The notes below the pieces were generated by a model that was given only the letters and a program-made list of their open reading frames with translations, was not told the DNA's origin and ran no database searches. The position numbers and the translations under genes were made by a program. A DNA stretch of 38,171 nucleotides from Gammaproteobacteria bacterium (GTDB lineage Bacteria > Pseudomonadota > Gammaproteobacteria > Thiohalospirales > Thiohalospiraceae). Positions within the stretch are counted from its first letter, which is position 1. Each line of letters begins with the position of its first letter. This document shows positions 11,561 to 15,740 of the stretch, piece after piece. The DNA lies in the NCBI GenBank assembly GCA_014762495.1, contig JABURT010000141.1, forward strand, positions 1-38,171, read 5' to 3'.

Positions 11561-11594
11561 AAAAAAAAGCCCGGCCATGAGGCCGGGCTTTTTT
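11561..11594. terminator. Bidirectional terminator between pgi and the barrel gene
   Basis: AGCCCGGCC (11568-11576) pairs perfectly with GGCCGGGCT (11581-11589) around an ATGA loop. Eight A precede and six T follow, so it serves pgi on the plus strand and the convergent outer-membrane protein gene on the minus strand. Confidence 0.93.
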
Positions 11595-11615: not shown

Positions 11616-12818
11616 CTAAAAGTTGACGGCGAAACCGAGGTAGCCGCTGAACCCGGTGCCCGTGGCATTGGGGTCGATCACCGCGGCGAAGTTGAGGGCG
11701 TTGTTGAGGAAGCCCATACCCACGCTGTACTGGGTCAGGGTGGTAGCGAGGTCATTGGTGTAGCCCAGGCGCAGCTGCATGATCTTCCAGGCGTCGAACT
11801 CGACACCGGCGGCCATAATACGACTCTTCTCACCGAAGACGTCATTCTCGGTCAGGTCCATGTCGGCACCGACGGTCATGAATTTGCTGGTATAGCCAAT
11901 ACCGGCACGCATCTGCGGGGCCACCTCATAGGTGCCGCCACCGCCGAGGGCATAGCTCTTGGCCATCAGGTTACGCATGGACAGACCGAGACGAAAGGAC
12001 TTGCTGACCTTCCATACCGCACCGGCATCGAGGTTGAAGTCGGAGCTAGCGTTGCTGACGGTCAGAGCCGGAATACCGGAGCCGGCCAGTTCCTGAGTAC
12101 CGGTAGCGCTGGCAATGCTGACCAGCTTAGGAGTGAGGCCCACTGCGAAATCTAAGCCGGCAAGGTTGAGGGTACGGGCCAGGGAGACACCGATCTCGGT
12201 GGCGGAGACACCATTGAATTCGACGCGGGCGTCGGTGGTGAGGCTACTGGGATCGGCGTACAGGCTGGCGTCGACGGTCTCGGGTGTCAGGCTTGGGGTG
12301 CCGTCAGCGGCTCCAACGCCAACGGCGGCATCGATGTAGGACTGGGTGCTCAATGAGGCTGCCCATTCACCTAGAGTGAAGCCCAGGTTTGCCCCGATAG
12401 GTGTGGCAAGGGTATAGCTTTTCCCACCCAGGTTATTCAATGAAGTATTCAGATTGCTGTAGGCAGTATTCACGTCGTTCTGGAACTCGGCGAGTCCGGC
12501 GGCGTCTTGACTGTAGTTCGCATAGTCGAGATTTTGGAAGCTTTGCAGGCTAGTGCTGAAATCATCAATGGCGCCGGTGAGGTTTTGCGAGTCGGCATAA
12601 CTCACCCCTGCACTCATGGAAAGTGAAAAATCCGCATCGGCATCCTGGGCGGCAAGCAGTGCCGGGTTGTAATAGGCGGCCGAGTCCAGGGTCGCAGTGG
12701 CCACTGAGGCACCGCCCATGGCCGCGGTACGGGCATCGATACTGGACCAGGGTGCGGCCGTTGCGGTGGTGCTGGTGAGCGCCACTGCAGTGGCGACGGC
12801 TAGGGTTTTCAGCTTCAT
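11616..12818 (-). CDS. TraF-like outer-membrane beta-barrel protein
   Basis: This 400-residue exported protein has a signal peptide (about residues 1-22, ending TATA-APW). Its N-terminal DARTAAMGG...YYNPALL pattern is typical of the family called TraF_2 in domain databases, which is distantly related to FadL-type barrels. The chain alternates hydrophobic and polar residues and ends in Phe (LGFAVNF), as expected for a protein inserted by the BAM machinery. A helical, Asn/Ala/Gln-rich insert lies around 75-135. Despite the family name, no conjugation genes are nearby, so a transfer role is not supported. A strong GGGAGGA precedes the ATG. It is the last gene of a minus-strand group with a lipoprotein and a second barrel. 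Cargo or function is unknown. Confidence 0.8.
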   Translation of the reverse strand: MKLKTLAVATAVALTSTTATAAPWSSIDARTAAMGGASVATATLDSAAYYNPALLAAQDADADFSLSMSAGVSYADSQNLTGAIDDFSTSLQSFQNLDYANYSQDAAGLAEFQNDVNTAYSNLNTSLNNLGGKSYTLATPIGANLGFTLGEWAASLSTQSYIDAAVGVGAADGTPSLTPETVDASLYADPSSLTTDARVEFNGVSATEIGVSLARTLNLAGLDFAVGLTPKLVSIASATGTQELAGSGIPALTVSNASSDFNLDAGAVWKVSKSFRLGLSMRNLMAKSYALGGGGTYEVAPQMRAGIGYTSKFMTVGADMDLTENDVFGEKSRIMAAGVEFDAWKIMQLRLGYTNDLATTLTQYSVGMGFLNNALNFAAVIDPNATGTGFSGYLGFAVNF

Positions 12819-12936
12819 TTTGTCCTCCCAGACAAGGTCGTAATTTAAATATCCAAATTTGTTAAATCATAACTAGCTTACGGAGTTTCTACCTATCCCT
12901 CAATTGAGGTAAGTTTCAGGCCAGCACCCGCGCTGT

Positions 12937-14421
12937 CTAGAGTGTAAAGGTGCCCAAATCCACTCCTTCCAGGTCCATGGTCGAGGTATCGACCACCAGG
13001 TTTCCCGAGGCATCGGTTTCCAGAATGATGGTCTGTTCGCTGCCCAATACGTCCAGAGTCATCACGGAAGTATAGTCATTCACCGCGGTGATGGTGCCGG
13101 GTAGTGACACCGTATCGGGATTGCCATCGCCGTCTATATCCACCGACGACATATCGATATTGACCGTGCCATTGCTTGTGTCGATGGTCACGTCGGCTGT
13201 GCCGCCACTACCGTCATTGAGCGTGGTGGGGGTGCTGGCATTGATGCCGGCGCCACTTAAGGCAGTACTGAGGTCGGATCGCGAAGAATAATCGGTGGTG
13301 GCACTACCGGTGGCGATGTAGTCGGCGGCGATCTGGGCGACGTCGGCCGAGGCGTTTTGTAGATTCGTCAACGTCGCCCCAGTGATCAGATCGGCAATTG
13401 CTGCCGCCTCATTGGCACTGAGGGCGGTCTGAGTGAGCATGATCGTCAGCACCTCGATGGCGCGTCCACGTGCCTCGATTTCGGCAACGGTGTGTGTTGC
13501 GGTAGAACCGAGACTAAAATGGCTGGCGTCGCCGATGAGGGACAGTAGATGGCCGATGCGAGTAGCCATGTCGGCGGCAATGGCGCCACCGTCATTTACG
13601 CCGCCGTTACTCTCGATCAGGCCGGCGGCACCACTACCTCCGGGGGTTCCGAGTGTGGCATCCACATTGGCGGTGGTACCTAGGAAGGTCTCCATATCGG
13701 GGTTACTTGCCGCCTCCCATGCAGTGACCATTGCCTCATACACATAGGGACTGAAATCATTGGCCAGGGCGGCGTTACTGGTGTTCGCATCCGTGTACCG
13801 GCGTTTCAATTCAGTGGCCATGACATGGACGGACTTATGCACCAGCCAGGCGGTTCGAATGAGGTGGTTTTGAGCCGCATCGGTGGTGGTGCTGATGTCC
13901 AGTAGATCGGCGTTCAGATCAGCCTCGGTCAGGCTGGTACCGGCGGCGGTATTCTCAGCGTTGAGAAAGGCGGTGACCTGGGCCGCTGTCATGTATCCCA
14001 GCAATGAGGTCAAAGGTGAGGTGATCTGGGACGACGCCGCGTCTGCGGCGCGAGTCAGCACGCCGCGAAATGGCTCGCCTGTAAGGGTGTCGATCCCACC
14101 TTTAATACGGATCAGTTCGCCACTGTAGGCGCCGGTGCGCAGGCAGTATTTCTCATGTGTTGTATTGCTCGAGGTGCAATAGTTGGTGCCGTCCTGGGCC
14201 ACTCCAAAATAACCGTCGGCGTCGGTGCGGGCACGTGGTTCGAAGGGATCCAGGACCCCGTCGCCGGTGATGTCGAGATAGACCGTGGCGCCAGCGACGT
14301 AGCCGTCGACGGCCAGTCCTGACAGCGTGGAGGGATTGCCGCCGTCCTGGTTTGGGGCGCCGCAGGCCGCCAGTAGCACCAGTGGCAGGCCGACCAGTAC
14401 AGTACGATGTATGCACTTCAT
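12937..14421 (-). CDS. Large hypothetical lipoprotein
   Basis: This 494-residue protein has a lipoprotein signal peptide with lipobox LLAAC and lipidation at Cys20. The residue after the Cys is Gly, not Asp, which favours sorting to the outer membrane. Residues 35-75 read like a small beta-sandwich: AVDGYVAGATVYLD, then DGVLDPFEPRARTDADGYF, with calcium-loop-like Asp spacing. A central, mostly helical Ala/Thr-rich region follows. Near 425-445 there is an Asp/Gly loop, DIDGDGNPDTV, resembling a calcium-binding type 3 repeat, and the C-terminus is beta-rich. I do not recognise a catalytic domain. It starts 11 bases after the upstream barrel gene with GGAG as ribosome site, so the two are almost certainly one operon. 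Confidence 0.8.
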   Translation of the reverse strand: MKCIHRTVLVGLPLVLLAACGAPNQDGGNPSTLSGLAVDGYVAGATVYLDITGDGVLDPFEPRARTDADGYFGVAQDGTNYCTSSNTTHEKYCLRTGAYSGELIRIKGGIDTLTGEPFRGVLTRAADAASSQITSPLTSLLGYMTAAQVTAFLNAENTAAGTSLTEADLNADLLDISTTTDAAQNHLIRTAWLVHKSVHVMATELKRRYTDANTSNAALANDFSPYVYEAMVTAWEAASNPDMETFLGTTANVDATLGTPGGSGAAGLIESNGGVNDGGAIAADMATRIGHLLSLIGDASHFSLGSTATHTVAEIEARGRAIEVLTIMLTQTALSANEAAAIADLITGATLTNLQNASADVAQIAADYIATGSATTDYSSRSDLSTALSGAGINASTPTTLNDGSGGTADVTIDTSNGTVNIDMSSVDIDGDGNPDTVSLPGTITAVNDYTSVMTLDVLGSEQTIILETDASGNLVVDTSTMDLEGVDLGTFTL

Positions 14422-14432
14422 GACAGCTACTC

Positions 14433-15740
14433 CTAGAAGTTGAAACCGATGCCCAGGTTGACGCGCAGGCTTCGGGGCATCGTCGAACCTTCGAAGGTCG
14501 TGGTATTGGTGGATTGCGCCACGTCCAGCGTCAGTATCTTGAACAGGCTAAGCCCTATATTGAGTTCAGTGAGCCCCGAACCCACCAGGTTCTTGCGCAG
14601 GCCCATGCGGAAGCGCGGTACGAGAAGTCCGCCCCATCCCTTGATGGCGTAGGCCGAACTCAGGGTCAGGTATTGTACCGGGTCACCTAGCATGTCATTG
14701 ATGGCATTGAGGTCCAGGGAGGCGGCCACAATGAAGTTACCGCCGGCGCCGAGAATTGCCCCTTCGCTACGCAGCTGCGGGGTCATGACATGGGTTTCAC
14801 TTAGTGATATTTCATCACTGTGGGCCACCGCTATGTAGCAGGCATCGATCTCTTCCTGCGTTGGCAGCGATGCACAATTCTGACCGATGGTCGGATAGGC
14901 AAAGCTGGCCGAGGTGAGATTGGCCAGGGTCAGGCCGGCTTGGTATTTATCCGCCTTGAGCATGACACCGAGGTCGAAATCCGAGGCGGTGGTAGTGGCG
15001 AAGTCCAGGTTGGATGGGATCGAGTCGGTGACCGTGTTGGTGGCGACATCGACGCTGACCGCGGCCAGGGTTTTGTTAGTGCCCACGCTATACATGGTGT
15101 AGCGGCCGCCTAGATAGAGTTCGCCAAAGGATGTTTGCATCAGCCGACGGCTGTATCCGAGAGCCAGGTCACCGCGATAGGCGGCTTTGGCATAGAGCGC
15201 GCCTGTGACACCAATACTGGTCGGCCCCGAAATCTGGACCGGCGTATCGAGGTATCGGGCGCTAAACTGGCTGGTAAAGTCGGCACTTAGGTAGACACTG
15301 CCAAAATTGCTGGTGCCGGTGATGAGCGGAAACAACGGCACACTGGTACCCAGGTTGGTCTTGAGCAGAAAGGAGTCACTGAAGGCGGAAAAGAAGCTGT
15401 TGAGATCGGTGGCGATGGCATTGATCTCTGTTGGCTGGATATTGCTCAGGTCGTAGGCATTGAGGGCATCGAACTCGTCCTGAGCGGCACCCAGATTACC
15501 CTGTTCGAAGGAAATACCCGTATTCAGACTCAGTGCGCTGTGCAGCCGGTAGCCCTTATCTCCGTGTGCGGCGGCGGGTGCGGCCGGGTTTTGTGTCAGG
15601 GTCAGGAGTTCCTGCGGGATAGAGACATTACCATAGCCGAGCACGGGCCCAAGGGGCTGGTAGCTCGGGAAGGCCAGGGCTGTAACGGGCAGTACACCCA
15701 TCAAAAGAGCGATACCGCTAAGGCGTTTTATCACGGTCAC
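14433..15740 (-). CDS. Second putative outer-membrane barrel protein
   Basis: This 435-residue protein has a signal peptide (cleavage probably after ALA near residue 23). It ends in LGIGFNF, with a terminal Phe suited to BAM insertion. Alternating strands such as GELYLGGRYTMYSVG and DLGVMLKADKYQAGLTLANLTS suggest a barrel. It resembles the TraF_2-type protein encoded two genes downstream in length, layout and C-terminus, and carries TQNPAAP where that protein has YYNPALL, so the two may be distant paralogs. One Cys pair in the NC-ASLPTQEEIDAC loop (about 15 residues apart) could form an external disulfide. The start is GTG; a second GTG two codons later is equally possible. It begins the three-gene minus-strand group. 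Function unknown. Confidence 0.72.
   Translation of the reverse strand: MTVIKRLSGIALLMGVLPVTALAFPSYQPLGPVLGYGNVSIPQELLTLTQNPAAPAAAHGDKGYRLHSALSLNTGISFEQGNLGAAQDEFDALNAYDLSNIQPTEINAIATDLNSFFSAFSDSFLLKTNLGTSVPLFPLITGTSNFGSVYLSADFTSQFSARYLDTPVQISGPTSIGVTGALYAKAAYRGDLALGYSRRLMQTSFGELYLGGRYTMYSVGTNKTLAAVSVDVATNTVTDSIPSNLDFATTTASDFDLGVMLKADKYQAGLTLANLTSASFAYPTIGQNCASLPTQEEIDACYIAVAHSDEISLSETHVMTPQLRSEGAILGAGGNFIVAASLDLNAINDMLGDPVQYLTLSSAYAIKGWGGLLVPRFRMGLRKNLVGSGLTELNIGLSLFKILTLDVAQSTNTTTFEGSTMPRSLRVNLGIGFNF

Follow-up and report, generated by a model that had tools for sequence, protein, structure and literature searches.

Among the housekeeping genes of the 38,171-nucleotide stretch of gammaproteobacterial DNA analysed here (the window), three adjacent minus-strand genes encode exported proteins: two putative outer-membrane barrels (A and B) and, between them, a lipoprotein (Table 1). 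The locus raises the question of whether these genes form a unit and, if they do, what a barrel and a lipoprotein encoded side by side may do for one another. The original prediction was exact on the sizes and positions of the three proteins and on the gaps between their genes (11 bases, and 118 bases between the lipoprotein gene and the gene for A), and the lipobox cysteine (Cys20) of the lipoprotein and the terminal phenylalanine of both barrels are present as described; both barrels have ordinary signal peptides. The neighbouring genes are ppc, pgi, tRNA-Leu(caa), queA and yajC (family match) together with tgt and secD (by reading). No sigma-70-like promoter sites were found in the window, and in a pattern scan the terminator-like sites of the region, including that downstream of A, were not more numerous than in shuffled sequences.

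Table 1. Coordinates of the barrel and lipoprotein genes and associated features within the window.
Feature	Position	Strand	Description
Barrel B gene	14433..15740	minus	435 aa; GTG start; exported TraF_2-family protein
Spacer, barrel B gene to lipoprotein gene	14422..14432	minus	11 bases
Lipoprotein gene	12937..14421	minus	494 aa; lipobox LLAA/C, Cys20; no known family
Tether segment, C20-GAPNQDGG-28 (CGAPNQDGG)	14338..14364	minus	conserved C-x(2-4)-QD-x-G motif
Barrel A gene	11616..12818	minus	400 aa; exported TraF_2-family protein; NPA motif; C-terminal Phe; facultative third member
Terminator-like GC stem and T run 3' of barrel A, before convergent pgi	11561..11590	minus	sequence and pattern match

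A constant pair and a facultative third gene

Profile searches recovered full-length relatives of the lipoprotein at 19 loci in 18 genomes, and at all 19 the gene is immediately preceded, in the same orientation, by one for B, a recurrence that places the arrangement far beyond chance. The carriers are the window's genus (including G002), every one of the 13 genomes sampled from one order, both genomes of another order and Teredinibacter waterburyi; the remaining matches of the profile searches share essentially just the N-terminal part of the lipoprotein, mostly about 70 residues. Across an even sample of 369 genomes, the full-length lipoprotein was found in six, all of them among the 18 with a B-clade barrel, and there it adjoined B. 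The gap between the two genes was at most 40 bases in 17 of the 18 loci measured, including one 14-base overlap, and 89 bases in Teredinibacter (L040). The lipoprotein never occurred without B among the 19 full-length loci, whereas B without the lipoprotein does occur, there being 12 B-clade barrels with no adjoining lipoprotein (for one, in G088, the contig stops just behind B).

Barrel A directly follows the lipoprotein at 9 of the 19 loci, co-directionally in the window and in G002 and convergently in G305, G386, G382, G383, G377, G378 and G385, so the trio is common, not constant, and A is not required for the pair. The constant unit is therefore B with its lipoprotein, 11 bases apart in the window, and the third gene is facultative. 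The three genes had been proposed as a conserved unit, which stands for the pair (19/19), and the scenario that would have undone the proposal, genes lying mainly apart in other genomes, did not materialise for B and the lipoprotein; it does not stand for A. A complex with two fixed barrels is unsupported as proposed because A adjoins at just nine loci and some B barrels stand alone or have A but no lipoprotein beside them, and the fixed three-gene complex was dropped. Six loci (G044, G075, G207, G310, G111, G326) have A and B side by side in convergent orientation without an intervening lipoprotein, so the two barrels are associated with each other as well; these loci lie near the same polA and cytochrome c genes as those of the 13-genome order.

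In the window's genus (pgi/queA), in G167/G277 and in Teredinibacter the pair occupies differing chromosomal sites. The 13-genome order supplies much of the adjacency evidence, and its locus is syntenic from polA to mpl; adjacency within it is therefore partly one ancestral event, which leaves about four independent placements (the order itself, G167/G277, Teredinibacter and the genus of the window). Gene names assigned by eye in this order (L094, L135, L162, L164, L170 and others) give, in order, polA, a LOG-type lysine decarboxylase-like gene, a small exported protein and cytochrome c, followed by A where present, the lipoprotein, B, a zinc-ribbon protein and PfkB-like, LON-domain, UbiX-like and Mpl-like genes. 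One genome, G380, has two divergent pairs of B and lipoprotein on separate contigs (L163, L165).

Over 11 loci of the 13-genome order, the distances among B barrels and among their lipoproteins were closely correlated (r 0.92), UbiX of the same locus giving 0.60 and 0.59, and the partial B–lipoprotein correlation was 0.88 (0.90 over eight loci with the LON-domain gene as the control), values whose weight is limited because they come from non-independent pairs and because a shared rate change in one operon can produce them.

Two kinds of TraF_2 barrel

One barrel, A, had been labelled as TraF_2-type, and the label is upheld for A (Pfam PF13729, E=4e-37, 128 bits) but is too narrow, since B also belongs to this family (E=1.4e-25, 90 bits); both are clear members, well above the cut-off of 25 bits. 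Judged by sequence the two are nevertheless of two kinds. TraF_2 barrels occur in 55 of the 369 genomes of the even sample (43 of the 272 genera sampled), and in a tree built from the TraF_2 matches of this sample of the class and from relatives, B groups within a 19-row clade (support 100/99) that excludes A. The B clade is present in 18 of the 369 genomes, and A-type barrels are common and mostly single.

Other family searches gave matches near or below the cut-off to proteins of the type IX secretion system (T9SS). B matches PorP_SprF (PF11751) just above the Pfam cut-off (E=5.1e-5, 23.4 bits vs 22.3), as do 9 of 16 B barrels, and 11 of 16 show PorP/SprF similarity in NCBIfam, where B reaches 17.8 against a cut-off of 90.55 for TIGR03519; A matches the NCBIfam model PorV_fam (1.1e-10) below its cut-off. 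Pfam gave no match of the barrels to FadL/Toluene_X (PF03349), neither A nor B matched a Slam family (Pfam and NCBIfam, E up to 1), and B matched no barrel chain in the PDB by sequence.

The hatch motif N51-P52-A53 of B has its Asn and Pro in 19/19 paired B barrels and its Ala in 18/19, and the NPA motif is found in A as well; this motif is reported to be essential for FadL gating (PMC8407342). The single-chain AF2 models, built from four sequences each, are of low confidence (pLDDT 64–65; 65 for B), and the best PDB match of the low-confidence B model in Foldseek was FadL (2r88; E 2e-4, prob 1.00, TM ~0.4), with TodX lower among the matches. Taken with the weak PorP/SprF match, the motif and the modelled fold suggest that B is FadL-like, the fold of that superfamily being a 14-strand barrel with an NPA-bearing hatch at the N-terminus. 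B further carries a Cys loop (C289-C301) within a signature, D165 Y183 K185 K223 G286 C289 C301 A304 E315 D349, which 18/19 paired barrels have in full; barrels whose sole partner is a convergent A have lost it. Five B barrels with no adjoining lipoprotein (G284, G088, G214, G316, G036) retain it completely or mostly, so the signature does not need the lipoprotein; from this distribution it may mark a lipoprotein-capable type of B.

The lipoprotein and its tether

The stretch behind a lipidated cysteine is normally a variable linker. Members of this lipoprotein family share a mean pairwise identity of about 27%, and the tether, C-x(2-4)-QD-x-G, is among their most conserved stretches: it stands right behind the lipid-bearing cysteine in 17 of the 19 paired lipoproteins, the remaining two having CNAEDPDTS (PDxS in place of QDxG), and its Asp (D26 in the window) is present in all 19. 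None of the 10 listed relatives of the N-terminal domain that have no B neighbour (8 distinct, some being duplicates) carries the tether. Among the predicted lipoproteins of all fetched DNA, QDxG was found in 9 of 41, all belonging to this family, under a strict lipobox pattern that skips some members. The residue after the lipidated cysteine is never Asp in the family, as is expected for outer-membrane sorting under the E. coli rule.

Behind the tether, residues 50–61 form an EF-hand-like loop, DITGDGVLDPFE, with a pattern match in 17 of the 19 members; of the Asp-rich loops that had been suggested to bind calcium, an EF-hand-like Asp loop is thus conserved, and from its sequence it may do so. 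Cysteines C82 and C93 are invariant and could form a disulfide. The middle of the protein is helical and the C-terminal domain is beta; a closing motif, Y-x-FD-x-GG-E-x(3)-W, is shared by many members but not by the lipoproteins of the window and G002.

Searches of 16 members against Pfam, NCBIfam and the PDB gave no family match, and a profile of the lipoprotein retrieved no PDB chain with E values of up to 10 allowed. The possibility that it might prove to be a known enzyme was thus discarded, as no match to any known enzyme family was found. Foldseek with the model returned nothing significant (best E 0.26), and therefore the weak likeness of the C-terminal domain to avidin and fatty-acid-binding barrels (E ~0.5) is not used here as evidence. 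The family and its coupling to B appear undescribed, no description having been found in Pfam, NCBIfam, the PDB or open-access literature; in the literature searched PF13729 was not named, and queries on conjugal TraF with outer membrane and lipoprotein yielded nothing relevant.

The N-terminal domain recurs at L041:4024-6758 and L043:5962-8626 in proteins with a cytochrome-c-like C-terminus, each followed by a FAD-protein-like gene (both read by eye). Contig L042, titled Helicobacter pylori PMSS1, holds a 1452-aa surface-protein-like ORF and long sensor-like ORFs; it is unlike H. pylori and may be mislabelled.

Possible roles of the pair

Given that the full-length lipoprotein was found solely behind B, with a conserved tether beside its lipid anchor, it is probably held or displayed at the outer membrane by the barrel. 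B and the lipoprotein would probably be made from one transcript, the lipoprotein would be lipidated at Cys20, and its tether and N-terminal domain with the calcium-loop-like segment would dock on B, a putative member of the FadL superfamily, which would keep it at, and probably outside of, the outer membrane; A would be a related barrel that is often part of the same unit. We infer the contact between B and the lipoprotein, the surface exposure and the calcium binding from gene order, pairing, tether, co-divergence and barrel family, and on this footing we consider the chances about even that B serves its own lipoprotein as receptor or anchor and keeps it, through the tether, at the outer membrane, probably on the outer face.

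The nearest working precedent for such a pair would be BamG-BamH of the Bacteroidota, where BamG, a barrel of the FadL family, receives the lipidated tail of the surface lipoprotein BamH in a groove on its surface, and BamG2 and BamH2 are encoded in a putative operon (PMC12611786, PMC12578637). The likeness, a FadL-type barrel gene paired with a lipoprotein gene, is known here from the genes alone; in contrast to the precedent, the lipoprotein has no detectable sequence relation to any PDB chain and B matches no barrel chain, the solved chains of these complexes included, and the host is a gammaproteobacterium. PorP/SprF proteins are likewise FadL-family barrels that anchor surface partners, sometimes encoded next door (sprB-sprF; PMC9143113), and 9 of 16 B barrels match PF11751 while A matches PorV_fam below the cut-off; however, B lies far below the NCBIfam cut-offs, its partner is a lipoprotein and not a CTD protein, and no T9SS match was found. 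The Bacteroidota lipoprotein export signal (LES) is K-(D/E)2 or Q-A-(D/E)2, optimally C-X-K-(D/E)2-X (PMC5080379). It resembles the tether in being a short conserved polar or acidic motif close behind the lipidated cysteine, but the tether has QDxG at about +5 to +9 against near +2 to +6 for the LES, departs from the LES consensus, has one acidic residue and is seen in one family only. Notwithstanding the shared features, B and the lipoprotein would, in our reading, work like BamGH, PorP/SprF and LES export without being a member of any of them.

The dissimilarity of the tether from the Bacteroidota signal counts against surface exposure, and the fuller form of the proposal is held more cautiously. 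That the FadL-superfamily barrel would recognise C-x(2-4)-QD-x-G and hold or carry the lipoprotein on the surface, independently of Slam and of Bacteroidota-type export and with the second barrel as partner or client, is in our estimation rather unlikely on the sequences at hand.

A rival account, although somewhat unlikely, is transport, with B (and A) forming FadL-type channels that pass a hydrophobic compound and the lipoprotein serving as a substrate-binding or gating accessory. The NPA motif of both barrels and the fold matches of B, of which FadL and TodX are among the best, favour it, as would the likeness of the lipoprotein C-terminal domain to small lipid-binding barrels, were it stronger than E ~0.5, and the window's own genome (G000, a 91% complete assembly) had no PF03349 FadL while E. 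coli and other control genomes were positive. Against this, no lipase or binding-protein family matched any of the 16 lipoprotein members searched, no obvious lipid-metabolism gene lies beside the unit in the window or the 13-genome order, and some barrels of the FadL family are known not to be transporters of the usual kind (BamG, PorV, PorP). A lipoprotein partner of FadL barrels is known in Vibrio cholerae, where VolA, a surface lipoprotein (cited in PMC9496633, PMC12208996), supplies fatty acids to FadL; VolA is a lysophospholipase, unlike the present lipoprotein, which has no hydrolase family match among 16 members. Transport and a receptor or anchor function may both hold.

We regard it as distinctly improbable that the pair is the equivalent of BamGH or PorP in Gammaproteobacteria, aiding the folding or anchoring of other outer-membrane or surface proteins, with A as a client or partner. 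The resemblance in fold and gene pairing to BamG-BamH, the PorP/SprF similarity of the B barrels and the presence of A next door at nine loci speak for such a role, but, in contrast to what one would expect of a general assembly factor, the unit is confined to a few lineages and lacking in most of the class, and the lipoprotein has no sequence match to BamH, PorE or T9SS parts; a search for SprA gave no match in the window's own genome, the control being without a match too. Mere operon neighbours, whose adjacency was inherited and whose products act separately, would fit the syntenic locus of the 13-genome order, yet the pair has stayed together at differing chromosomal sites, is never split at 19 loci and co-diverges beyond the UbiX control, so that this seems very unlikely. 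A conjugation-related TraF protein, to which we give practically no credence, has the Pfam name in its favour and is refuted at this locus by ppc, pgi, tRNA-Leu, queA and yajC, no conjugation gene being present in the loci read, which bears out the earlier view that the TraF label misleads; the family members described here differ from that label also in the B clade with a lipoprotein partner, which was not found described.

To our knowledge, how lipoproteins reach and stay at the gammaproteobacterial surface is largely open outside the Slam system. The present locus offers a unit of two genes, whose candidate signal of nine residues lends itself to mutation, and would provide a first testable role for the TraF_2 barrels, which occur in 43 of the 272 genera sampled and are labelled as conjugation proteins. 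FadL-family barrels as holders of lipoproteins, seen structurally in the Bacteroidota in 2025, may be more widespread.

Two further lipoproteins were observed beside TraF_2 barrels. Teredinibacter encodes a second lipoprotein (CQQDITTANP) at L040:3413-4351 on the minus strand, in divergent orientation upstream of its B barrel. At L033:1120-3629 (G058; also L093), a different lipoprotein with CGAQDSDL behind the lipobox immediately precedes a highly divergent TraF_2 barrel, after which comes an alpha/beta hydrolase (PF12146); this barrel and lipoprotein may be a further, independent pair.
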